Positions 9,070 to 34,355 of a DNA stretch of 64,000 nucleotides are shown piece after piece. Origin of the DNA: Acidimicrobiaceae bacterium. Its GTDB lineage: Bacteria; Actinomycetota; Acidimicrobiia; Acidimicrobiales; RAAP-2. The position numbers and the translations under genes were made by a program. Every line of letters begins with the position of its first letter. Within the stretch, counting starts at the first letter, position 1. The stretch covers positions 1 through 64,000 of the forward strand of contig DAIEHI010000104.1 in assembly GCA_027355725.1 (NCBI GenBank), read 5' to 3'. The notes beneath the pieces are model-generated. The model was not told the DNA's origin and ran no database searches. It worked only from the letters and a program-made list of their open reading frames with translations.

Positions 9070-9914
9070 TTCTCGCTCTTGTCGGGTTCGCCGTGATCAG
9101 CGTTGGTACGCCCAGCGCGCCAGAACGCCTTTGAACTGATGTACTGATCATCGAGGCCCCGATCGAGCAGTGCACTTCGCACGGCTCGAAGCGTCGAGAA
9201 CTCGCCGAACAGGTATGCGTGGCCCTGGTCTTGAGGGAATTCAAAGGCGGCGAGGCCGTTCAAGAGACCCGCTGGATCGTTCTTCGCGCGTCCTCGACGA
9301 TCGACGAAGATGCCGGTGATGCCGATGCCTTCGTCGAACGAAGCAGTCAGCGCGTCGTCGTCGTGGTCGATCTCGACGATGAAGATCGCGCGACCCGGCG
9401 CCTCGATGCTCTGGGCCATTCGATAGAAGGCGCCCAACCCACTTGCGTCGCCAACAAAGACGTGCCAGTCAGCGTCGGGGTCGAGGATGATCTTGCCGCG
9501 CGGACCAACCACGTCCACCAGGTCTCCGGGTTGGGCGTGGCGAGCCCAGGTACAGCCCGGGCCGTCGTGATCGGTCGTGACCCACAGGGTGAGCGTCCCG
9601 GCATCCTCGTCGACGAAGCGCACGGAGTAGCGACGCCGGATGAACTTGCCCGATGAGTCAAGGACGCGGACCATGATGTCATTGCCGGCCACCCCCGCGA
9701 GCGAGGGGTCGCCTTGAAGAGTGACTTCGGCGATCGAGGTGCTGAGCTGGCGTGTTGAGACCACTTGAGCGACGCTGGCGCTGACGCCGAGGCGTGCAGC
9801 GAGTTCGAGTGTTGAGTCATCGGCGAGAGAGTTCACTTTCGCAGCATAATTTGCCTGGCGCACACTACGAACCCATGTTCGGTAAGTTGGATGGTTGTGG
9901 CAGCCGCACGACAC
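9066..9914 (-). CDS. Siderophore-interacting protein family (FAD-binding, SIP-like)
   Basis: RRYSVRFVD, WARHAQPGDLVDVVGPRGK, HVFVGDASGLGAF; true start may lie downstream of the ORF start because it overlaps ftsK. Confidence 0.8.
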   Translation of the reverse strand: MSCGCHNHPTYRTWVRSVRQANYAAKVNSLADDSTLELAARLGVSASVAQVVSTRQLSTSIAEVTLQGDPSLAGVAGNDIMVRVLDSSGKFIRRRYSVRFVDEDAGTLTLWVTTDHDGPGCTWARHAQPGDLVDVVGPRGKIILDPDADWHVFVGDASGLGAFYRMAQSIEAPGRAIFIVEIDHDDDALTASFDEGIGITGIFVDRRGRAKNDPAGLLNGLAAFEFPQDQGHAYLFGEFSTLRAVRSALLDRGLDDQYISSKAFWRAGRTNADHGEPDKSEN

Positions 9915-22704: not shown

Positions 22705-23328
22705 TCAGTAACTCCGAAGCACCGAAATGACGCGGCCAAACACCGTGACGTCGCGAGTGTCGAATTCCATTGCTTCAAGACTGCGGTTCTCCGGCTTCAA
22801 GACGGTTCGAGCGCCCTGGGGGAAATAGCGCTTCACTGTCGCCTCGTCGTCATGTATGCCCGCAACCACTATTTCACCGGTCAAAGCAGAACTCTGGCGC
22901 TGGACCACGACGTAGTCACCCGGCAAGATTCCGGCTTCGATCATTGAGTCGCCGCGAACCTGCAGGACAAAACTGTCTCCACGCCCCGCGAACTGCTCGG
23001 GGATTGACATGAGTTCATGGCTTGTCTCTGCGGCAAGCACGCCGGTGCCCGCGGCGACGTCGCCAACGAAAGGGATGTGTCGGATGTGCTGATCAGGAAC
23101 GGGGTTCTCTGCATCGAGGCGCACTGTAAGTGTGCGCGGTTGCTGGGGATTCTTCTCAATGAATCCTGCGTTCTTCAACACCTCAATGTGATTGGCCACG
23201 GTGGCGGGGGACTTGAGGCCAACGTGGTCACCTATTTCACGGATGGTGGGTGGGAAATTTCGCTCACGTTGACATGAGATGATGAATTCGAGGATCTGAC
23301 GACGCATCGGTGTTAGGACTTCTGCCAT
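22705..23328 (-). CDS. lexA: LexA repressor
   Basis: Winged-helix N-terminus (FPPTIREIGDHVGLKSPATVANHIEVLKNAGFI); S24 peptidase VRGDSMIEAGILPGDYVVV. Confidence 0.97.
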   Translation of the reverse strand: MAEVLTPMRRQILEFIISCQRERNFPPTIREIGDHVGLKSPATVANHIEVLKNAGFIEKNPQQPRTLTVRLDAENPVPDQHIRHIPFVGDVAAGTGVLAAETSHELMSIPEQFAGRGDSFVLQVRGDSMIEAGILPGDYVVVQRQSSALTGEIVVAGIHDDEATVKRYFPQGARTVLKPENRSLEAMEFDTRDVTVFGRVISVLRSY

Positions 23329-23342
23329 TGGGCCTCCAGGAA

Positions 23343-23356
23343 CGAACAGTTGTTCG
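23343..23356. promoter_or_regulatory. LexA/SOS box upstream of lexA (CGAACAGTTGTTCG)
   Basis: Perfect CGAAC-N4-GTTCG palindrome 15 bp upstream of the lexA start. Confidence 0.93.
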
Positions 23357-23584: not shown

Positions 23585-24769
23585 ATGAAGCTTCGTTTGA
23601 ATAAGACGGTGGCTATGGCCGCGTCGGGTGCTCTGCTGTTGATGGCGGTGCCGGCAATCGGTCTCGCATCAACCTCAGGTGCTGCAGTAAAGGCAAAGCC
23701 GACGTACACCATTGGGTACGAAGGACCGCTGTCGGGTGGTAACCAGCAGTTGGGCTTGAACATGGTGTTCGCCGTTCAGTTGGCAATCAACCAGGCCAAC
23801 GCGACGGGGAAGTTGCCGTTCAAGTTGCAGTTGAAGACGTACGACGATCAAGGTGACCCGACCATCGCACCTACCCAGGCGCAGGCTGCAGTGCACAACA
23901 AGAACCTTGTCGCTTTGGTGGGTCCAGCGTTCTCGGGTGCCACGGCCGCCGCAGAGCCTTACTACAAGGCTGCGCACATCGCCACGGTGAGTCCGTCGGC
24001 AACGCGCGTGTCGCTGGCAACGAGTGGATGGAACAACTTCTTCCGCGTAGTTGCAGACGACGGCGTCCAGGGTCCTGCTGACGCTACGTACATGGTGAAG
24101 AAGTTGGGCAAGAACTCTGTCTACGTCGTTAACGACGGCACTTCTTACGGCCAGGGTGTGGCGAGCGCCTTCGCAACCCAGGCAACAAGCCTTGGCGCCA
24201 CAGTGGCAACCGCCACAGTGCCGGGTACCTCTCAGTGCCAGAACGGTACTGCGTCGGCAACCCAGTACTCAGCCGCAGCAACCCAGGTGGTCGCCAGTGG
24301 AGCGAAGGGCATGTTCTACGGTGGTTACTACTGTGACCTTGGTTTGTTCCTCGGTGCGCTGCAGTCAGCTGGCTACACGGGTGCGATCATGTCAGACGAC
24401 GGTTCACTGTCGCCAGCATTGATCTCGAGCACCACTCCAGCCTCAGCAGCGAATGGCGTGTACTTGACCTGCGCTTGCGCGTCATCGACGAACAAGACCT
24501 TCAACGCCAAGTACCAGGCACTCGCACACTTCAGCGCTGCGAACGCTACGTACGCTCCTGAGTCCTACGACGCTACGAACGCCATCATCAACGCCATGAA
24601 GTCGTTGAAGAAGGTGACTCGAATTGGCATCGTTAATGCATTGCACAAGTTGACCTGGAAGGGTATGACCAAGGTCATCAAGTTCCAGAAGAACGGCAAC
24701 ATCTCGGGCTCAGCTATCTACGTGAACCAAGTGAAGAACGGCGTTATCGTTCAGCTTGGCCTCGAGTAA
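23585..24769 (+). CDS. ABC transporter substrate-binding protein, branched-chain amino acid type
   Basis: Signal peptide, YTIGYEGPLSGGNQQLGLNMVFAVQLAINQAN; LivJ-like fold; followed by LivHMGF-type genes. Confidence 0.9.
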   Translation: MKLRLNKTVAMAASGALLLMAVPAIGLASTSGAAVKAKPTYTIGYEGPLSGGNQQLGLNMVFAVQLAINQANATGKLPFKLQLKTYDDQGDPTIAPTQAQAAVHNKNLVALVGPAFSGATAAAEPYYKAAHIATVSPSATRVSLATSGWNNFFRVVADDGVQGPADATYMVKKLGKNSVYVVNDGTSYGQGVASAFATQATSLGATVATATVPGTSQCQNGTASATQYSAAATQVVASGAKGMFYGGYYCDLGLFLGALQSAGYTGAIMSDDGSLSPALISSTTPASAANGVYLTCACASSTNKTFNAKYQALAHFSAANATYAPESYDATNAIINAMKSLKKVTRIGIVNALHKLTWKGMTKVIKFQKNGNISGSAIYVNQVKNGVIVQLGLE

Positions 24770-24790
24770 CGTACAGAAATTCAGTGTTTG

Positions 24791-24825
24791 AGCGAAGGGC
24801 CGGAGGATTCCTCCGGCCCTTCGCT
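24791..24825 (+). terminator. 17-bp perfect inverted repeat after the SBP gene (attenuator/terminator-like hairpin)
   Basis: agcgaagggccggagga / tcctccggcccttcgct read directly; no following T-tract. Confidence 0.7.
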
Positions 24826-24862
24826 CTTCGCTACACTTTGCAAGCACAATTGAGGGGTCATT

Positions 24863-25825
24863 TTGGGCGGGTTTTGGCATTACTTATTGAGTCACTTGGT
24901 GACACTTCGTCGTGAATTCTGGTATTTGTTCGTCGGTGGCGTCGCGAATGGTTTCCTCTACGGAATGGTGGCGGTCGGCTACACGCTCGTCTACGGAGTG
25001 CTTCGACTCATCAACTTCGCCCACTCGGAGATCTTCATGTCAGGGGGCTTCGCCGGCTACTTCGTGATGAAAGCAATGATTGGCTCCTCGGTTCCGAGTG
25101 GCTTCGCCACGGTGTACTTAATCGTCATAGGCATCGTCGCCGGCGGCGTCGTGGGAGCGATTGTTGCAACATTGCTCGAGCGTGTTGCGTATCGACCACT
25201 GCGTAGACGAAACGCACCCAAACTCGCGTATCTAATCAGCGCCATTGGTTCGTCGTACTTCCTCTTCAACTTGGCAGGTAAGGAATTCGGTCGGTACTCG
25301 ATTTCGGTTCCTCAGCCGTACGTCAATCACACGGTGTTCACAATCTTTGGCGCCCCGGTGCAGCTCTATTACATAGTGATTCTGATCGTCGGCGTCGTAA
25401 TGTTCCTAGGCCTGGACCGAGTAGTTGCGACGACGAAGCTTGGGCGAGGAATCCGCGCAGTGGCCCAAGATGCAGAGACGGCTTCATTGATGGGTGTCAA
25501 CATTGACCGCACTATCGCGATGACCTTCATCGTTGGCGGTGCTCTTGGCGGCGCGGCGGGCTTCTTGTTTGGCCTGGGCACGGGTGTGGTGTTCACCATG
25601 GGCTTCACTCCCGCGCTGAAGGCCTTCACTGCAGCGGTTCTTGGGGGGATTGGAAACCTTCGAGGTGCCATGATTGGTGGGCTGTTGCTGGGCGTGGTCG
25701 AGAGCCTTTCTGTGGTCTTTGTCCAAGCGGCCTACATCGACGTTGTAGCGTTTGGGATCCTGGTGGCGGTCTTGCTGATTCGCCCGACGGGCCTCCTCGG
25801 TGAGCGGTTGGGTCGGGCGGCATAA
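24863..25825 (+). CDS. livH: Branched-chain amino acid ABC transporter permease (LivH-like)
   Basis: ~8 TM; GVLRLINFAHSEIFMSGGFAGY; GRGIRAVAQDAETASLMGVNIDRTI. Confidence 0.92.
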   Translation: MGGFWHYLLSHLVTLRREFWYLFVGGVANGFLYGMVAVGYTLVYGVLRLINFAHSEIFMSGGFAGYFVMKAMIGSSVPSGFATVYLIVIGIVAGGVVGAIVATLLERVAYRPLRRRNAPKLAYLISAIGSSYFLFNLAGKEFGRYSISVPQPYVNHTVFTIFGAPVQLYYIVILIVGVVMFLGLDRVVATTKLGRGIRAVAQDAETASLMGVNIDRTIAMTFIVGGALGGAAGFLFGLGTGVVFTMGFTPALKAFTAAVLGGIGNLRGAMIGGLLLGVVESLSVVFVQAAYIDVVAFGILVAVLLIRPTGLLGERLGRAA

Positions 25826-27168
25826 TGAGGACGCTCTTTCACAACGTGAGCGTTCGTCGACTGATCAGCGCTCTTGCGGTCATGGCGGTGGTTGCGGTAA
25901 TGACCGGTCCCGCCGGTAGCACCGAGACTCCGACGGCGGGATTCACCGGCTCCTTCGCTGAGAAATCGTCTTTCTTCGGTATGTTCGAGACAGTCCGTTG
26001 GGTTCCATTCCTATTTCTCGGCCTCGTTTTCTTCTCAGTGTGGAGTCTGTGGTTGTCGCGGGGTCAGCAGGTAAAAGATGGCGTCGCCAAGGTGTTTGCG
26101 GCGCCGCGCGCGGCAGCTGAGAGACGACCAGTTCGTTGGGGCATCGCAGTGCTGCTCATCGTGGTCGCGCTCATCCTGCCTCACATCATCACCGACCCCT
26201 TCTGGCAGGCGGCCATGGTCGAACAAATTGCGGTCTATGTCTTGCTCGCGGTCGGACTGAATGTCGTCGTCGGTTTTGCTGGACTACTTGACCTTGGATT
26301 CGTGGCGTTCTACGCGATTGGCGCCTATACGACCGCGTGGGTAACTGGAGCTTTGCCGCTGCCTCCGCTCTTTGGAATCCATATGGACCCGTTCTTCGCC
26401 ATTCCGATTGCCATCGTGATCGCGATGTTGGCGGGCATCATCCTTGGCGCGCCGACACTTCGATTGAGGGGCGACTATCTGGCCATTGTGACGCTCGGCT
26501 TTGGTGAGATCATCACGATTTTCGCCAATAATCTCTACGGCATCACGGGCGGATCTCAGGGTACGGCATTGATCCCGCACTTCTCGTTGCACGTTGGACC
26601 GATTAAGTACCTCTGGGGACTCACGCCGGTGCCGTACTATTACTTGACGTTGGTCTTTGTCGTCTTGTTCCTCGCGGCATTCTCTCTCCTAGAGCATTCG
26701 AGAGTGGGCCGTGCCTGGACCGCGATTCGAGAAGACGAGGTGGCCGCTGAATCGGTTGGCATCAACCCCCTCAAATACAAGGTGATGGCCTTCGCCATCG
26801 GCGCCTCAACTGCGGGATTTGCCGGGGTCGTGACGGCGAGTCAGTCAAACAACATCTTCCCGTCAAGTTTCACTTTGTCATTTTCGATCAACATCCTGGT
26901 ACTCGTGATCTTCGGTGGCATGGGTTCCATCTTCGGCGTCGTGCTCGGTGCAATTATCATCCAGACCGGTTCGATGTACCTGTTGCACACCCCACCGGCT
27001 GGGTATCAGCCCTCCGACCTCTATGTCTACTTGGGAGCACTGCTCGTGATGATGATGATCTTTCGTCCTGCGGGCCTCGTCCCCTCCCGTCGCCGTCGTC
27101 GAGAGATTCGACTTTCGGAGGCGGGGGAAGGACACGCCGATGAGGTACTGACAGGAGATCAGCCGTGA
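25825..27168 (+). CDS. livM: Branched-chain amino acid ABC transporter permease (LivM-like)
   Basis: LDLGFVAFYAIGAYTTA; GRAWTAIREDEVAAESVGINPLKYK. Confidence 0.92.
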   Translation: MRTLFHNVSVRRLISALAVMAVVAVMTGPAGSTETPTAGFTGSFAEKSSFFGMFETVRWVPFLFLGLVFFSVWSLWLSRGQQVKDGVAKVFAAPRAAAERRPVRWGIAVLLIVVALILPHIITDPFWQAAMVEQIAVYVLLAVGLNVVVGFAGLLDLGFVAFYAIGAYTTAWVTGALPLPPLFGIHMDPFFAIPIAIVIAMLAGIILGAPTLRLRGDYLAIVTLGFGEIITIFANNLYGITGGSQGTALIPHFSLHVGPIKYLWGLTPVPYYYLTLVFVVLFLAAFSLLEHSRVGRAWTAIREDEVAAESVGINPLKYKVMAFAIGASTAGFAGVVTASQSNNIFPSSFTLSFSINILVLVIFGGMGSIFGVVLGAIIIQTGSMYLLHTPPAGYQPSDLYVYLGALLVMMMIFRPAGLVPSRRRRREIRLSEAGEGHADEVLTGDQP

Positions 27169-27971
27169 GCGACAGGATCTTCGATGTTCAGAACGTCACA
27201 CTTCGCTTCGGCGGCGTGGTGTCACTTAATGACGTGAGCCTCCATCAGAACCGCGGAGAGATTCTCGCGGTGATTGGGCCCAACGGTGCCGGCAAGACAT
27301 CGCTGTTCAATTCTCTGACTGGTGTCTATCAGCCCCAAGAGGGCACAATCACGTTCCTTGGGCGTGACGCCAAGCCAATTTCTATCATTGGCAAGAAGGC
27401 ACACCAAGTGAGCTCCGCGGGCGTCGCGCGCACCTTTCAAGCGTCGAGGATGTTCAGTGCGCTCACCGCATTTGAGAACGTCAAGATTGGTGCTGAATCA
27501 CACCGCGGCATTGGGGTGCTCGGTGCGATGTTGAAGGGCCCCGGCACTCGCAAGGACGAGAAGTCCTCGGACGCCAAGACGTTCAAGTTGTTGGAGTTCG
27601 TTGGCATGACGGAGAAGGCCAATGTGGTTTCCGCTTCACTCTCCTATGGTGACCGGCGCCGACTCGAGATTGCTCGCGGACTCGCGACTGATCCCCAGGT
27701 GCTGCTCCTCGACGAACCCGCGGCCGGAACGAACCCTTCAGAAAAGATCCAACTTACGGAGTTGATTCGAAAAGTGCGCGATGAGATGGGCGTGTCGATC
27801 TTGTTGATCGAACACGACATGAAGCTCGTAATGTCTCTCGCTGAGCGCCTGTACGTCTTGAACTTCGGCGGGGTGATCGCCGAGGGGACGCCAGAAGAGA
27901 TTCGCGCCAACCCAGCCGTCATCGAGGCCTACCTAGGCTCGTCGAGCGTTACGACCGAGGAGCAGGCATGA
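27165..27971 (+). CDS. livG: ABC transporter ATP-binding protein (LivG-like)
   Basis: GPNGAGKTSLFNSLTG Walker A; LSYGDRRRLEIARGL; LLLDEPAAG. Confidence 0.93.
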   Translation: MSDRIFDVQNVTLRFGGVVSLNDVSLHQNRGEILAVIGPNGAGKTSLFNSLTGVYQPQEGTITFLGRDAKPISIIGKKAHQVSSAGVARTFQASRMFSALTAFENVKIGAESHRGIGVLGAMLKGPGTRKDEKSSDAKTFKLLEFVGMTEKANVVSASLSYGDRRRLEIARGLATDPQVLLLDEPAAGTNPSEKIQLTELIRKVRDEMGVSILLIEHDMKLVMSLAERLYVLNFGGVIAEGTPEEIRANPAVIEAYLGSSSVTTEEQA

Positions 27972-28684
27972 TGCTGCAAGTTAATGATGCCGTTGTTCGC
28001 TACGGTGCGATCACCGCGCTTCACGGCATAACCTTCGAGGTGCAAAAGGGAGAGATCGTCACCCTGCTCGGTGCTAATGGTGCTGGAAAATCAACGACGC
28101 TTCGAATGTTGTCGGGACTGCACGCACCGGCTACTGGATCCATTGTCTTCGAGGGCCACGACATCTCCCAGGTCAAGGCGCACAAGTTCATGGAACTGGG
28201 CATCGCCCACGTGCCAGAAGGTCGGCGCATCTTTCCCCAGATGACGGTCGAGGAGAATCTTGAAATGGGCGCTTTCACGAGAAAGGGATCGTTCAGCGAC
28301 GACATGGAACGCATGTACACGACGTTCCCGATCCTAAAGGAGCGACGCAAGCAACTCGGTGGAAACCTTTCTGGGGGTGAGCAGCAGATGCTCGCTATCG
28401 GACGTGCACTCATGGGCAACCCGCGACTGTTGCTGTTGGACGAGCCGTCAATGGGTCTCGCCCCCATGATCATTGAAACGATTTTTCGAATCATCGATGA
28501 GATTCGAGACTCCGGTACTACGGTCTTCGTGGTCGAGCAGAACGCAGCCCAAGCGCTTCGCATCGCCGACCGCGGCTACGTGATGGAAAACGGTCGCATT
28601 GTCTTTGGCGACAAGGCGAGCAACTTGTTGCACGACGAGCGAGTGCGAGCCGTCTACCTGGGCGAGACAGTCGAAGGCGACTAG
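27968..28684 (+). CDS. livF: ABC transporter ATP-binding protein (LivF-like)
   Basis: GANGAGKSTTLRMLSG; LSGGEQQMLAIGRALM; LLLDEPSMGLAP. Confidence 0.93.
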   Translation: MMLQVNDAVVRYGAITALHGITFEVQKGEIVTLLGANGAGKSTTLRMLSGLHAPATGSIVFEGHDISQVKAHKFMELGIAHVPEGRRIFPQMTVEENLEMGAFTRKGSFSDDMERMYTTFPILKERRKQLGGNLSGGEQQMLAIGRALMGNPRLLLLDEPSMGLAPMIIETIFRIIDEIRDSGTTVFVVEQNAAQALRIADRGYVMENGRIVFGDKASNLLHDERVRAVYLGETVEGD

Positions 28685-28688
28685 TCGA

Positions 28689-29183
28689 ATGGCTGATCAG
28701 CCACTGACGTCAAAGGCGCTGCACCCGAGTGCCCAGCGAGTCGCTGCGGCACTGGCGGAGCGTGGCGTACTTGGACCGGTGCATCAGTTCGAAGTGTCTA
28801 CCAAGTCCTCAGCGGACGCCGCTGCGGCGCTTGACTGCGAAATTGGGGCCATTGCGAGCTGTCTCGTATTCATGCTCGACGACGAGCCGATCGTCGTTGT
28901 GAAGAGTGGCGCGAATCGCGTTGACACGAAGCAGTTGGCGCACGTTGCTCGGGGCGTCGGCGTGCGTCAGGCAACTCCAGATGAGGTGCGCGCAGCGACG
29001 GGACAGCCCATTGGCGGAGTCTCGCCGGTTGGATGGCCTGTGGCGCTTCGAGTCTTCATTGACGACACGCTCGGCGGTTACGAACGCGTGTGGTCGGCGT
29101 GTGGAACACCGAACGCAGTGTTCGCCACGACCTATGACGAGCTGGTTCGCCTTACTGAGGCGACGCCGTTGACGCTTCACTGA
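28689..29183 (+). CDS. YbaK/EbsC (ProX-like) aminoacyl-tRNA deacylase family protein
   Basis: AAALDCEIGAIASCLVFMLDDEPIVVVKSGANRVD; QPIGGVSPVGWP; ATG at 28689. Confidence 0.85.
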   Translation: MADQPLTSKALHPSAQRVAAALAERGVLGPVHQFEVSTKSSADAAAALDCEIGAIASCLVFMLDDEPIVVVKSGANRVDTKQLAHVARGVGVRQATPDEVRAATGQPIGGVSPVGWPVALRVFIDDTLGGYERVWSACGTPNAVFATTYDELVRLTEATPLTLH

Positions 29184-29236
29184 TTGACAGCTCCTTCATC
29201 TCATCGCGACCGTTGTGGCTCCTACGAGGAGAGACA

Positions 29237-29968
29237 ATGCAAATGCACAGCGACGCGCAGATTGGGCAGTGTTGGAAGGACTTCGCCGACGTGGTGTCGG
29301 CCGGGATCTCTCGGGTCCTCCTCTATGGCCCACCGGGTACTGGCAAAACGTACGCGGCGCTTCACTTTGGAAGCTCGAGTTCCATGGCGGAACGCCTTGT
29401 GTGCACTGAGGACCTCACGACCGGAGAGATCACGGGCACGTGGATGCCGACTGGCGAGGGGAGCTGGTCGTGGCATGAGGGCCCGGCAATTCGTGCGTGG
29501 AAGGATAACGGGGGTCTGGGTGGTCGACTCGTCGTTGACGAGGTGGACCGCGCGTCGGGCGATGCATTGAGCACGTTGCTCGCCGTCACTGATTCAATGG
29601 AATCTGCGCGTTGGCGAAATCCCGAGAACGGCGAGTGGGTGAGCCCCGGTCCCGAGTTCTCAGTCATCATGACGACCAATGTAGAGGACTTGGCTGCGAT
29701 CCCACCGGCCCTTCGAGACCGTTTCGCGGTAGCGATTCGCATCGATCGACCACACCGTGACGCTCTCGAGTTGCTCAGTGAAGACTTACGACACGCCGCG
29801 CTCGCGAGCTCCATCGCCGAAGGGCCCCGTCGACTGTCGCTTCGTAGTTTCTACGCATTCGATCAACTTCGCCTCCGCCTGGGCCCCGACCGCGCTGCAC
29901 GAATCATCTTTGGCGACGATCGAGCGGAGTCGGTCCTTGATGCACTTCGGATCAGAGCCCTCGAATGA
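29237..29968 (+). CDS. AAA+ ATPase (MoxR-like)
   Basis: VLLYGPPGTGKTYAAL Walker A; RLVVDEVDRASGDALSTLL Walker B; PPALRDRFAV arginine-finger region. Confidence 0.85.
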   Translation: MQMHSDAQIGQCWKDFADVVSAGISRVLLYGPPGTGKTYAALHFGSSSSMAERLVCTEDLTTGEITGTWMPTGEGSWSWHEGPAIRAWKDNGGLGGRLVVDEVDRASGDALSTLLAVTDSMESARWRNPENGEWVSPGPEFSVIMTTNVEDLAAIPPALRDRFAVAIRIDRPHRDALELLSEDLRHAALASSIAEGPRRLSLRSFYAFDQLRLRLGPDRAARIIFGDDRAESVLDALRIRALE

Positions 29969-31311
29969 AGGTGCACGCCTACCCCGAGTTCGTGAGTGAG
30001 CGAGACGATGGATCCCTCGATGGCCCTTGGGAGGTGCGCGAGGGCACTACTTCTCGAGGCGGAGCGAGTTGTGACCTGACGAACCGGATTCTGGAGGTCC
30101 CACTCGGGTCGGGTGACCTCGAGCGATTGGTTCGTGCGCACGAATTGATGCACGTGCGCGTGAGTCCGAGCTCCATTTCGTATCGCGAGGTGCACGACGT
30201 GTCACTGCGTTCTCTCGAGTGTGCTGAGGAACTTCGGGTCAACACGTTGCTCGCCCGAATTGGCTTCACGACAGAATTGTTGAAAGACGGCAGCGAGAGG
30301 TCCGCCGGGTCGCGAGTGGCGAGCGAGGGTGACTGGGGCGAGGCGCTTCGCTTCTTGCTCGCAGTGATCGGCACGGGTGGTGAACGTGAGTACTTGGCTG
30401 GTGTTCGAAAGGTGCAGCCGACTTGGGTCGGAGGTCTTCGCGCGTTGAAGAAGAGGGCGCTCGCAGTTCTGAGTGAGATGAGCACGAACGCGCTGGGCGA
30501 CACGAGCAGCGATGAGGAGGGTTTACCGCTCGGATATGGCGCGTCGGTCGTTATCGCACGCATCGTCGACGCGGCAGCGATGGCGATGGTTCCTGTTGGA
30601 CCGGAGGCGCTTCGACAGTTTCGGCGCTCTCTCGAACCAGGAGGGAGACGGGCGCCATCGGGGCGTTTCGCTGAACTGCGATGGGAGGTCCCCGAGGGAT
30701 TCGAGCGACGTGAACGACTGCTTGCGCGCCGGAGGCACCGTCCAGCGGTGAGCGGGACGGTGATGCGTTATCCCAGCCGACTCCTCACTGACGACGCACG
30801 GCGTGCCTTCGCATCCAAGCGCTCAGGAGCGGGTGGCATTATCATCATCGATCAGTCAGGATCAATGGACATCAACGCAGAGTACCTCGAAAGACTCCTC
30901 GTACGCGCACCCAATGCGCTCATCATCGGTTACAGCCACAAGCCCGGTGATCGAGGCGGCGTGTGCAATGCGTGGGTCCTGGCGACGCGTGGGGTGGTAG
31001 TGGCTTCGCCTCATGCGGGAAACATTGGTAATGGCGTCGACGGCCCCGTGCTTCGCTGGGCGCTCGCTCAACGTGTCAGGGGCGAACCCATCATTTGGGT
31101 CACTGACGGACAGGTGACCGACTCCAATGACCATCCCTGCGCTCAATTGAGCGAGGAGTGTGCCCGGCTGGTCCGCCACAACGGCATTTCCATGGTGCGC
31201 ACGCTTGAAGGGGCCCATTTCGCCCTGACGTGTCACAGGCCCTTCGTAACGTCAGAGTTCGGCAGGGTTGGTCGTAAGTTGGATGAAATCAAGGACTCAG
31301 GAGGGTCATGA
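29965..31311 (+). CDS. VWA-like protein with HExxH metallopeptidase-type motif
   Basis: AHELMHVRVSP (HExxH), ECAEELRVNTLL, DQSGSMD (MIDAS DxSxS), WVTDGQVTD; overlaps the AAA+ gene by 4 nt. Confidence 0.7.
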   Translation: MKVHAYPEFVSERDDGSLDGPWEVREGTTSRGGASCDLTNRILEVPLGSGDLERLVRAHELMHVRVSPSSISYREVHDVSLRSLECAEELRVNTLLARIGFTTELLKDGSERSAGSRVASEGDWGEALRFLLAVIGTGGEREYLAGVRKVQPTWVGGLRALKKRALAVLSEMSTNALGDTSSDEEGLPLGYGASVVIARIVDAAAMAMVPVGPEALRQFRRSLEPGGRRAPSGRFAELRWEVPEGFERRERLLARRRHRPAVSGTVMRYPSRLLTDDARRAFASKRSGAGGIIIIDQSGSMDINAEYLERLLVRAPNALIIGYSHKPGDRGGVCNAWVLATRGVVVASPHAGNIGNGVDGPVLRWALAQRVRGEPIIWVTDGQVTDSNDHPCAQLSEECARLVRHNGISMVRTLEGAHFALTCHRPFVTSEFGRVGRKLDEIKDSGGS

Positions 31312-31334: not shown

Positions 31335-31348
31335 CGAACACCTGTTCG
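31335..31348. promoter_or_regulatory. LexA/SOS box 1 (CGAACACCTGTTCG)
   Basis: Perfect CGAAC-N4-GTTCG. Confidence 0.93.
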
Positions 31349-31360
31349 CTTTAGAATATA

Positions 31361-31374
31361 CGAACAAGTGTTCG
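31361..31374. promoter_or_regulatory. LexA/SOS box 2 (CGAACAAGTGTTCG)
   Basis: Perfect CGAAC-N4-GTTCG; 19 bp before the ATG of the LysM gene. Confidence 0.94.
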
Positions 31375-31393: not shown

Positions 31394-31825
31394 ATGGCCG
31401 CAGTGCAGCAGCTCGAGGAATCGTGGTCTGAGGACGATATCCATGCGCCGTTCCTTCGTATCGTCACATCGACGCCGACCCCACTTCGCACCGGTCCAAC
31501 GCTGGCCGAACGTAGGGCGAGGCGTTCACGGATGCTGGCTCGCCGCCGCCGGACCCTGGTGGGGCTCGCTTTGATTGCGGGAATCATCATCCTTTCGATA
31601 CCTGGTCATGCGTTCGGCGGTATCACGGGATCAGGTTTGCCTACGGACCTTGCGAGCAGTTCGGTCATCGCTTCTGGGACGCAGTACGTGGTCCAACCGG
31701 GAGACACCTTGATGACAATTGCGCGCATGGTCAACCCGATCAATCCCGCTCAAGCGTTTCACGCCCTGACCGACGAACTTGGATCGAGTGTCGTGGTCGC
31801 CGGTGAGCACGTCGTTATCCCGTAA
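31394..31825 (+). CDS. Single-TM LysM protein, YneA/DivS/Rv2719c-like SOS cell-division inhibitor candidate
   Basis: 143 aa: TM (LVGLALIAGIIILSIPG), LysM (YVVQPGDTLMTIARMVNP...GEHVVIP); LexA boxes upstream; nrdR downstream as in mycobacteria. Confidence 0.75.
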   Translation: MAAVQQLEESWSEDDIHAPFLRIVTSTPTPLRTGPTLAERRARRSRMLARRRRTLVGLALIAGIIILSIPGHAFGGITGSGLPTDLASSSVIASGTQYVVQPGDTLMTIARMVNPINPAQAFHALTDELGSSVVVAGEHVVIP

Positions 31826-31848
31826 TTTTCAAGGCATTGGGGTGTATC

Positions 31849-32328
31849 GTGAGTGTCGTGCGCTGTCCCTACTGTGCTGCAGATGATGATCGCGTCGTTG
31901 ATTCGCGCCTGGCTGAGGATGGCGTCGCCATCCGTCGCCGACGCGAGTGTTCGGCATGTGGCCAGCGATATACGACGTTCGAACGAGTGGAAGAAGCCAC
32001 CCTGTTCGTTGTGAAGCGATCAGGCGAGCGAGAGCCCTTCGATCGCGAAAAGATCTTGGCGGGCGTGCGCTCGGCGTGCAAGAACCGACCGGTCGATGAG
32101 GCCACTCTTCAAGAAGTCGTTCTCTCGGTAGACGAGAGCATGCGCTTGTTGAACCGCGATGTCACCAGTGAAGAGGTGGGCGTAGCGACGCTCGAGGCGC
32201 TTCGTCACGTCGATGACGTTGCCTATGTGCGATTCGCTTCGGTCTACAAGGGATTTGAAGGCACCGAGGATTTCGCGCGCGAGATTGGCATGCTCGTAAA
32301 GACCACCGCACCAAAACTGCGCAACTGA
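31849..32328 (+). CDS. nrdR: Transcriptional repressor NrdR
   Basis: VRCPYCAADDDRVVDSRLAEDGVAIRRRRECSACGQRYTTFER zinc ribbon plus ATP-cone. Confidence 0.96.
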   Translation: MSVVRCPYCAADDDRVVDSRLAEDGVAIRRRRECSACGQRYTTFERVEEATLFVVKRSGEREPFDREKILAGVRSACKNRPVDEATLQEVVLSVDESMRLLNRDVTSEEVGVATLEALRHVDDVAYVRFASVYKGFEGTEDFAREIGMLVKTTAPKLRN

Positions 32329-32329
32329 C

Positions 32330-33037
32330 GTGCGAATACTGCGCGTACAGCCGAGATCGGCCATGGCCATCTACGCACACCCCGACGACGCAGACGTCGC
32401 TGCGGGTGGCGTCTTGGCGCAGTGGGCGCTTGAGGGCTGTGCGGTGCATTTGGTGGTCGTGTGCGACGGATCGAAGGGCTCACATGTTCCCCAGGTGGAC
32501 GTTCGCTCACTTCGCGAGGTGCGACGTCAGGAGTTGCAGCTCGCTTCGGATCTGCTCGGTGTGACCACCATCGAGTGCCTCGATCACGTTGACGGTGCCG
32601 TTACCAATGACGACACCCTTCGCTCGACGTTGGTAGGCCTCATACGCCAGCACCGTCCCGAGGTGGTGGTGGGACCCGATCCGACCGCCACGTTCTTCGG
32701 CGGGGTCTACGTGAATCATCGAGATCACCGAGAAACCGGCTGGGCATTACTCGACGCGGTTGCACCAGCTGCGGCGATGCCGCTGTATTTTCCCGACAAG
32801 GGAGAGGCACATCAAGTGCATCAACTGCTGCTGAGCGGTACCCACGAGCCCGACGTGGTCGTAGATGTCGCGCGCACGATCGACACCAAGGTGAAGGCGG
32901 TGCTCGCACACGCCTCACAGATTGCCGGTGATGCAGAGGGCATACGTGATGTCGTCTACGGTCGAGCGGGTCAAGCGGGTCATCCGGTCGGCTTGAGTTT
33001 TGGTGAGGCCTTTCGTAGTGTCGAACTCAGCTTTTGA
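32330..33037 (+). CDS. PIG-L/LmbE family deacetylase
   Basis: AIYAHPDDADVAAGGVLAQW (AHPDD motif); VNHRDHRETG. Confidence 0.9.
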   Translation: MRILRVQPRSAMAIYAHPDDADVAAGGVLAQWALEGCAVHLVVVCDGSKGSHVPQVDVRSLREVRRQELQLASDLLGVTTIECLDHVDGAVTNDDTLRSTLVGLIRQHRPEVVVGPDPTATFFGGVYVNHRDHRETGWALLDAVAPAAAMPLYFPDKGEAHQVHQLLLSGTHEPDVVVDVARTIDTKVKAVLAHASQIAGDAEGIRDVVYGRAGQAGHPVGLSFGEAFRSVELSF

Positions 33038-34355
33038 CGACCCCGGGCTCGACGAAGCGCCGATACTGCATATTGATCTGGATGCGTTCTTTGCCTCAGT
33101 GGAAATCCTCGACGATCCGTCCCTGAAGGGAAAACCGGTTTGCGTGGGTGGCGCGGGGGAGAGAGGGGTGATTGCGAGCGCGAGCTATGAAGCGCGTCGC
33201 TACGGGGTGCGAAGTGCGATGCCCAGTGTCGTCGCGCTCAGAGCGTGTCCTGGGCTCATCATTCTGCCCGGCCGCTTCGAGCGCTACGAGGCATATTCGC
33301 GGCGCTTTCACGACGTCGTGCGTGATCTCACTCCAGACTTTGAGCCCATTGGGCTCGATGAAATGTTCTGTGATCTGAGGAGCCTTCGACGACTGGGCGT
33401 TCGTCCGGTGGCGGCAGCCCAGGAGTTGCGGACTCGAATATCGAATGAATTGGCACTTCGCTGTGGTGTGGGACTTGGCCGCAACAAGCTCTTCGCGAAA
33501 CTCGCTTCCAAGCAGTCCAAGCCACGAATCGTGGGTGGAAGGCTCGTAGAGGGCGCGGGTGTCTTTTGGGTGAGCCCCGAGGTGGAAGAGAAGTGGCTCC
33601 ACGAACTGCCGGTGCGATCACTCTGGGGCGTGGGACCCGCAACGGCATCGAAACTCGAGAAATTGGGGCTGCAGTGGGTTCGAGACCTTGCGCGCGTTGA
33701 CCAGGAGACCTTGGCCCAGCACGTGGGTCCCGCCATGGCTGCATCGCTCTTTGCGTATGCGAAGGGTGAAGATGTCCGTGAGGTGGTGACCGATCGAACG
33801 CTTAAGTCGGTTGGACGTGATCAGACCTTCGCCAAGTCCCTCGAAGGCATCGACGAGGTGCTCGAAATGAGCAAGGCACAGGCGGCCGTCGTGGCGCGCG
33901 CACTTCGCCAAGAGTCTCGGGTGGCGCGCACGATCACCGTTGTGGTTCGATTTGACGACTTGACGAGCATCTCGCGCTCTCAGACCCTCTCGTTCGGCAT
34001 TGATGACGAAGTGTCGATTGCGGCGATCGCCGAGGCACTCTTACAGTCGGTTGAACTGAGACAAGCGGTGCGTTTGCTCGGGATTCACGCATCATCGTTC
34101 ATCGAGCGTGAGAAGAACCAGGTTCAATTGAGTTTTGCGCTTGATGCGAGTTCCCGTGACGCGCGCGAACGAGCAGCAATCCTCTCGCGCCAGCGCCAGA
34201 CCGGTAACGAAGCGCTGCGTGACGCGGTTGATGAGGTTCGTCAGCGATTTGGTCGTTCGGCGTTGGGGACTGCGTCAGAGCTCGGGGACGAGGGTATCCA
34301 CATTGACACGCAGCGCGGGAGTCACGCCTTTGGCCCCGGTGGGGCTACGCGTTGA
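33018..34355 (+). CDS. dinB: DNA polymerase IV (Y-family)
   Basis: ILHIDLDAFFASVEILDDPSLKGKPVCVGG; SYEARRYGVRSAMP; GLDEMFCDL; likely GTG start at 33018 overlapping the PIG-L gene. Confidence 0.92.
   Translation: MSNSAFDDPGLDEAPILHIDLDAFFASVEILDDPSLKGKPVCVGGAGERGVIASASYEARRYGVRSAMPSVVALRACPGLIILPGRFERYEAYSRRFHDVVRDLTPDFEPIGLDEMFCDLRSLRRLGVRPVAAAQELRTRISNELALRCGVGLGRNKLFAKLASKQSKPRIVGGRLVEGAGVFWVSPEVEEKWLHELPVRSLWGVGPATASKLEKLGLQWVRDLARVDQETLAQHVGPAMAASLFAYAKGEDVREVVTDRTLKSVGRDQTFAKSLEGIDEVLEMSKAQAAVVARALRQESRVARTITVVVRFDDLTSISRSQTLSFGIDDEVSIAAIAEALLQSVELRQAVRLLGIHASSFIEREKNQVQLSFALDASSRDARERAAILSRQRQTGNEALRDAVDEVRQRFGRSALGTASELGDEGIHIDTQRGSHAFGPGGATR

Follow-up and report, generated by a model that had tools for sequence, protein, structure and literature searches.

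Machines that combine a MoxR ATPase with a VWA-domain protein are widespread, and clients are known for few of them. The part of the NorQD literature drawn on here describes a MoxR ring that takes a VWA finger into its pore, with twisting of the partner (PMC13036017; see also PMC9976466). In jumbo phages of group 2.2, a MoxR ATPase is paired with a protein joining an N-terminal metallopeptidase domain to a VWA domain (ASV44729.1/ASV44728.2), and virion assembly was proposed as its role (PMC7824862). MoxR/VWA systems with an N-terminal metallopeptidase-like domain are thus already known, so that the pair studied here, which the preliminary description took as its best candidate for a poorly described system, does not have an unknown architecture. 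What is remarkable here is how the pair is distributed among phages and where it sits, beside lexA.

The DNA analyzed, referred to as the window, was a stretch of 64,000 nucleotides from an Acidimicrobiaceae bacterium. The features of the pair and of its surroundings were as follows.

22705-23328, minus strand: lexA, with a LexA box at 23343-23356; 5.9 kb from the pair in this window
29237-29968, plus strand: MoxR/AAA_5-type AAA+ ATPase, 243 aa (ORF list; profile and PDB sequence matches; motifs in 156 homologues)
29327-29350, plus strand: Walker A motif GPPGTGKT (aa 31-38), conserved in 156 homologues
29531-29551, plus strand: Walker B motif VVDEVDR (aa 99-105), conserved in 156 homologues
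29965-31311, plus strand: 448-aa partner with an N-terminal gluzincin-like/helical domain (approximately aa 1-225), a linker and a VWA-like domain (approximately aa 256-445) (PHROG 33218; AlphaFold2 pLDDT 87.6)
30139-30153, plus strand: HELMH motif (aa 59-63) in helix 51-66; 30/30 in the genus, 74/78 in the mixed set, 40/45 in the motif-free retrieval
30226-30243, plus strand: E88-E89-L-R91-V-N93 in helix 81-98, E89 being the proposed third metal ligand (alignment of 78; structure model)
30850-30864, plus strand: MIDAS motif DQSGS (aa 296-300); D, S and S invariant in 78/78
31036-31041, plus strand: V358-D359, with Val at the usual MIDAS Thr position (alignment with DUF2201; counts in 78)
31105-31107, plus strand: MIDAS residue D381 in the segment DGQVTD, 78/78
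31335-31374, no strand assigned: two LexA boxes, CGAACACCTGTTCG (31335-31348) and CGAACAAGTGTTCG (31361-31374), between the pair and the LysM gene; exact matches
31394-34355, plus strand: operon of LysM (weak match), NrdR, PIG-L and DinB genes, a neighbour outside the machine (comparison of loci)

The ATPase gene starts with the ATG at 29237, which has a GGAGAG ribosome-binding site in front of it; a TTG at 29213 is a less likely start. In the Pfam profile search the product matched AAA_5 (PF07728) at 5.5e-17, and its nearest relatives in the PDB were the MoxR proteins NorQ/CbbQ (7.9e-8). The preliminary description had recognized a MoxR-like ATPase from the two Walker motifs and a 4-nt overlap with the next gene, and both readings were correct, the two ORFs sharing the ATGA at 29965-29968. 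Values of dN/dS of about 0.06-0.17 indicated purifying selection on both genes; in this comparison two outlying values for neighbouring genes, probably from partial or misplaced matches, were ignored. The large partner evolves faster than most neighbouring genes. The two genes are a real conserved pair, not a chance arrangement, and constitute a poorly described two-gene machine whose peptidase role is putative. When the proteins were compared with PADLOC, generic AAA matches were obtained for the ATPase and none for the partner. Related ATPases of Gordonia, Microbacterium and Synechococcus phages were considered and rejected, being at most 32% identical and having other neighbours in the four loci read. 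In phage DSL-LC01, a related ATPase adjoins a gene annotated as cobalamin biosynthesis.

The sole family match of the partner was PHROG 33218, a functionally uncharacterized family from phages (2.5e-21, and up to 3e-45). Pfam and PADLOC gave no match, NCBIfam no meaningful one, and searching the PDB by sequence gave none. For the partner and its homologues PF13203/PF09967 did not rise above the cut-off; the VWA_CoxE, CobT and NorD models did not match the partner, and a single homologue of 29 reached 0.074 with VWA_CoxE, which is chance level. PF13203/PF09967, CoxE and CobT were therefore rejected as the family of the partner, the profiles of the N-terminal part also being unrelated. These results indicate that this is not a well-characterized housekeeping pair, and they bear out the earlier view of the system as poorly described. 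Its claim that a zinc-peptidase-like motif and a VWA domain are joined in one polypeptide also held, with HELMH in the N-terminal and the VWA-like domain in the C-terminal part.

Among viral structure models (BFVD), the partner matched A0A1B0XTW8 over its full length (5.9e-18), followed by CobT-like VWA proteins. PHROG 33218, by sequence (E values down to 3e-45), and A0A1B0XTW8, by full-length predicted fold, belong to the same family as the partner, but these copies are phage-borne and away from the lexA locus, unlike the window pair. The CobT-like VWA proteins of Gordonia and other phages showed a weak full-length structural likeness to the partner (GMA7, E 1e-6), although they are longer, have about 10% identity and go with ATPases no more than 32% identical. 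With NorQ/NorD and CbbQ/CbbO the window pair shares the ATPase nearest in the PDB, a VWA partner and the two-gene arrangement, whereas the nitric oxide reductase or Rubisco genes of those systems are absent at the pair, and for NorD, in the portion of the literature cited above, no HExxH domain is described, unlike the partner. DUF2201 proteins (PF13203 plus PF09967) resemble the partner in having an HExxH-type N-terminal part, a downstream (A)AD/EE..VN segment and a VWA-like C-terminus. Their VWA domain (PF09967) aligned with that of the partner (hhalign probability 94%, E 1e-7), whereas the N-terminal part (PF13203) did so with a probability below 1%, the second-ligand segment alone aligning. 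The metal-binding MIDAS Thr of DUF2201 is replaced in the window family by Val, which is Val358 in the partner (Val in 76/78), and the adjoining Asp359 is invariant. The MIDAS had been described as intact; its DxSxS and D381 are indeed kept throughout the 78 sequences, but with Val at the Thr position it is not fully intact.

By its published description, the jumbo-phage pair (PMC7824862) resembles the window pair in being two phage-borne genes for a MoxR ATPase and a metallopeptidase-VWA protein. The present partner family had no tblastn match in 50,697 phage records, whereas a DUF2201 protein used as the query matched in 530 of the same records, and the published jumbo-phage pair is therefore probably of the DUF2201 kind. 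Relatives of the large partner in cultured phages and plasmids were also sought with tblastn, and none were found.

The AlphaFold2 model of the whole partner had a pLDDT of 87.6, and residues 1-225 alone 93.4. The N-terminal domain was modelled as three short strands, helix 51-66 carrying HExxH, helix 81-98 carrying EExRxN, and further helices, an order that in the model resembles a minimal gluzincin. With Foldseek, the isolated domain model found no zincin in the PDB and nothing better than E 2.5, and the whole model gave only weak matches to VWA proteins, NorD and jannalysin (E 2.0). In 30/30 genus homologues H59, E60, H63, R91, N93, D296, S298, S300 and D381 were invariant. Across 78 genus and phage sequences, E60, R57, R91 and N93 were invariant and both histidines were present in 74; in both the genus and the mixed alignments E88/E89 were near-invariant along with R91 and N93. 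The HELMH motif and the ECAEELRVN segment singled out in the preliminary description are therefore present and strongly conserved. Since the first viral search patterns contained HExxH, the retrieval was repeated with patterns from the VWA part alone, and both histidines were kept in 40/45 distinct sequences having the N-terminus.

The exceptions formed two lineages on the tree, both retaining the MIDAS, E60, R57, R91 and N93. In one phage lineage (L172/L173/L194) both histidines are replaced by Arg and E89 by Ala or Thr; in the other (L232) they are replaced by Lys and Arg, and E89 is retained. The joint loss of H59, H63 and E89 in the former suggests from the alignment that the three would share a metal site with E89 as its third ligand, and the persistence of E60 where both histidines are gone suggests that E60 may be structural. 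The loss of both histidines in two phage lineages makes proteolysis unlikely to be universal. A conditional protease, one of the two roles first suggested, does not fit these lineages, which kept the rest, nor does the confident model of the N-terminal domain find a zincin in the PDB. Naturally occurring members that lack the metal site allow remodelling to be told apart from a peptidase function, if there is one.

The partner was present in 31/37 genomes of the window's Acidimicrobiaceae genus, in 0/24 genomes from other families of the order and in 6/397 genomes of a phylum-wide sample, all six in the window's genus. The loci obtained from genome collections (n=80) came almost all from metagenome-assembled genomes labelled Acidimicrobiaceae or Actinobacteria. 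Six loci labelled Acidobacteria or Saccharibacteria (L031, L044, L059, L075, L095 and L098) were of the Acidimicrobiaceae type, probably from mislabelled or mixed bins. Real absence in all six genus genomes without the partner was rejected, because in three of them the NrdR gene was also undetectable and an assembly gap is likely. The other three (G005, G015 and G022; loci L275, L276 and L277) have clean empty sites, that is, the same locus without the pair, and these three losses indicate that the pair is dispensable.

In every genus locus long enough, the gene order was ATPase, partner, LysM, NrdR, PIG-L and DinB, and a pair of LexA boxes lay between partner and LysM in nearly every locus spanning that stretch. 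In 21 loci, including the divergent lineages L092-L102, lexA and the ATPase gene are immediate neighbours facing away from each other, with one or more LexA boxes in the gap, and in deep lineages of the genus the pair sits exactly between lexA and LysM-NrdR-PIG-L-DinB. The window itself contained four exact LexA-box matches against 0.31 expected and no LexA box directly upstream of the pair. The fourth of these matches, CGAACCCATGTTCG at 9868-9881, lies near the start of an ORF at 9891. Between lexA and the pair, at 23585-29183, the window carries a liv (branched-chain amino-acid) transport operon and a ybaK-type tRNA-editing gene, which are probably a later insertion in the window's clade. 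With lexA and its box 5.9 kb away and the liv operon between, SOS control of the pair in the window is uncertain. The preliminary description was right that SOS genes adjoin the pair, the boxes lying after the pair and before the LysM gene; it missed the abundance of the pair in actinobacterial phages and its insertion between lexA and the divergent operon. The idea that lexA had been lost and that the HExxH protein had taken its place in an IrrE/DdrO-like manner was considered and rejected, because LexA_DNA_bind was matched in 56/61 genus genomes and lexA is present in the window. Two further LexA_DNA_bind matches on contigs C8 and C38 of G000 are paralogues or assembly contamination. A literature search on divS, lexA and nrdR found nothing.

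Viral contigs encoded the partner at 118 or more places, frequently in large phage contigs. Of the 88 viral loci read, 87 had the ATPase gene directly upstream of the partner gene, and the other was cut short by the end of its sequence. WhiB, a marker of actinobacterial phages, was found in 34/40 pair-bearing viral records; in the control it was absent from 13/14 genomes and present in Corynebacterium. Most of these phages therefore probably infect actinobacteria. In the few phage loci sampled, the neighbouring genes to which a name could be given encoded primase/helicase, helicase loader, HslV-like peptidase, phosphatases and an HA-domain DNA-binding protein; the neighbours read were replication and accessory genes, with no virion genes among them.

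In the unrooted tree the genus sequences neighboured one group of phage sequences, and deeper-branching phage sequences lay outside. As the tree is unrooted, it does not alone establish that transfer went from phage to host; the argument for this direction is that the sister genera checked lack the pair. In these (L279/G226 and L237/G446), the LysM/NrdR operon immediately adjoins lexA, LexA boxes are present and the pair is missing from the site; of the two, only L237 gave a tblastn match for the LysM gene. The pair was thus most likely inserted at this place in the ancestor of the genus. A single capture from phage into the SOS locus of this genus fits best. The family is not modelled in Pfam or NCBIfam; it is common among uncultivated phages of actinobacteria and in one bacterial genus occupies a single fixed site, where it clearly exemplifies the retention by selection of a phage-type machine at a DNA-damage locus of a bacterium.

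We propose that an ancestor of the genus captured the pair once, at a site flanked by lexA and by the divergent LysM-NrdR-PIG-L-DinB operon. The ATPase would, most likely as a hexamer, grip and twist the VWA end of the partner in the manner of NorQ/NorD; a client held between the VWA end and the N-terminal domain would be opened or pulled by ATP hydrolysis. The N-terminal domain may bind a metal through H59, H63 and E89, as in a gluzincin-like HExxH...E site, and in most members would probably clip the client as a conditional protease; in members without the histidines remodelling alone would be left. As the client, a protein of DNA metabolism or of the stress response would be more likely than one of the virion. 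We regard this explanation as a whole, namely a phage-type MoxR AAA+/VWA remodelling machine captured once, with a NorQD-like ring and a metal-binding N-terminal domain, as evenly poised between right and wrong. The fixed place between lexA and the divergent operon makes the question of the client testable.

The N-terminal domain might instead be a pseudo-zincin or carry a structural metal site, so that the client would be remodelled or loaded with metal uncut, as by NorQ/NorD, CobS/CobT and CoxD/CoxE. The closest solved ATPases (NorQ/CbbQ), the lineages that gave up HExxH and kept the other conserved residues, and the lack of a zincin match in the PDB are in keeping with such a chaperone or maturase, but HExxH is retained in most members even by the unbiased retrieval and in all genus homologues, and no gene for a metalloenzyme client lies beside the pair in genus or phage loci; we consider this rather doubtful. 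It is improbable, at a step below, that a phage AAA+ metalloprotease pair was recruited to the SOS control region and there, under certain conditions, cuts or remodels a protein of the DNA-damage response; a LexA-regulated division inhibitor, a polymerase and NrdR would be examples of such a target. If true, this recruitment would place another level of SOS control alongside LexA self-cleavage and Clp-type proteolysis.

A module of phage conflict, which would serve phages in attacking hosts or competing phages and the bacterium in defending itself, seems slightly less probable again. The sharing of the pair between actinobacterial phages and one bacterial genus, the faster evolution of the large protein and the clean loss in three genomes speak for it; the PADLOC results speak against it, and so does vertical inheritance at one constant locus, in which the pair differs from mobile defence islands. 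A defence island was rejected on the fixed locus and the absence of a PADLOC system. Least probable of all, in our judgment, is a machine for virion assembly or processing in phages, with the bacterial copy a remnant or in the service of a prophage-like element: this was proposed for the jumbo-phage pairs (PMC7824862) and large phage contigs often carry the present pair, but the phage neighbours read, from primase/helicase to phosphatases, are of another kind and the chromosomal copy is under selection with no virion genes near. The phage neighbourhoods together with the SOS position in the bacterium point to a role in DNA metabolism or host takeover rather than in virion assembly.

In two loci, L278 (G012) and L091, the partner seems to have lost its interdomain linker in a natural deletion, about 30 residues (222-251) that join the N-terminal domain to the VWA domain. 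Immediately downstream of the pair, about 31 of 49 phage loci carry a convergent gene for a protein with a helicase-associated (HA) domain (PF03457; L189:2967-3488; L112:4015-4398), possibly a third component of the pair in phages, and the L189 gene also encodes a sigma-type HTH. Several phages have a gene for an HslV/proteasome-like peptidase about 8-10 kb downstream of the pair (L181:19331-19951; L159:20494-21105), which in L181 adjoins a metallophosphoesterase gene.
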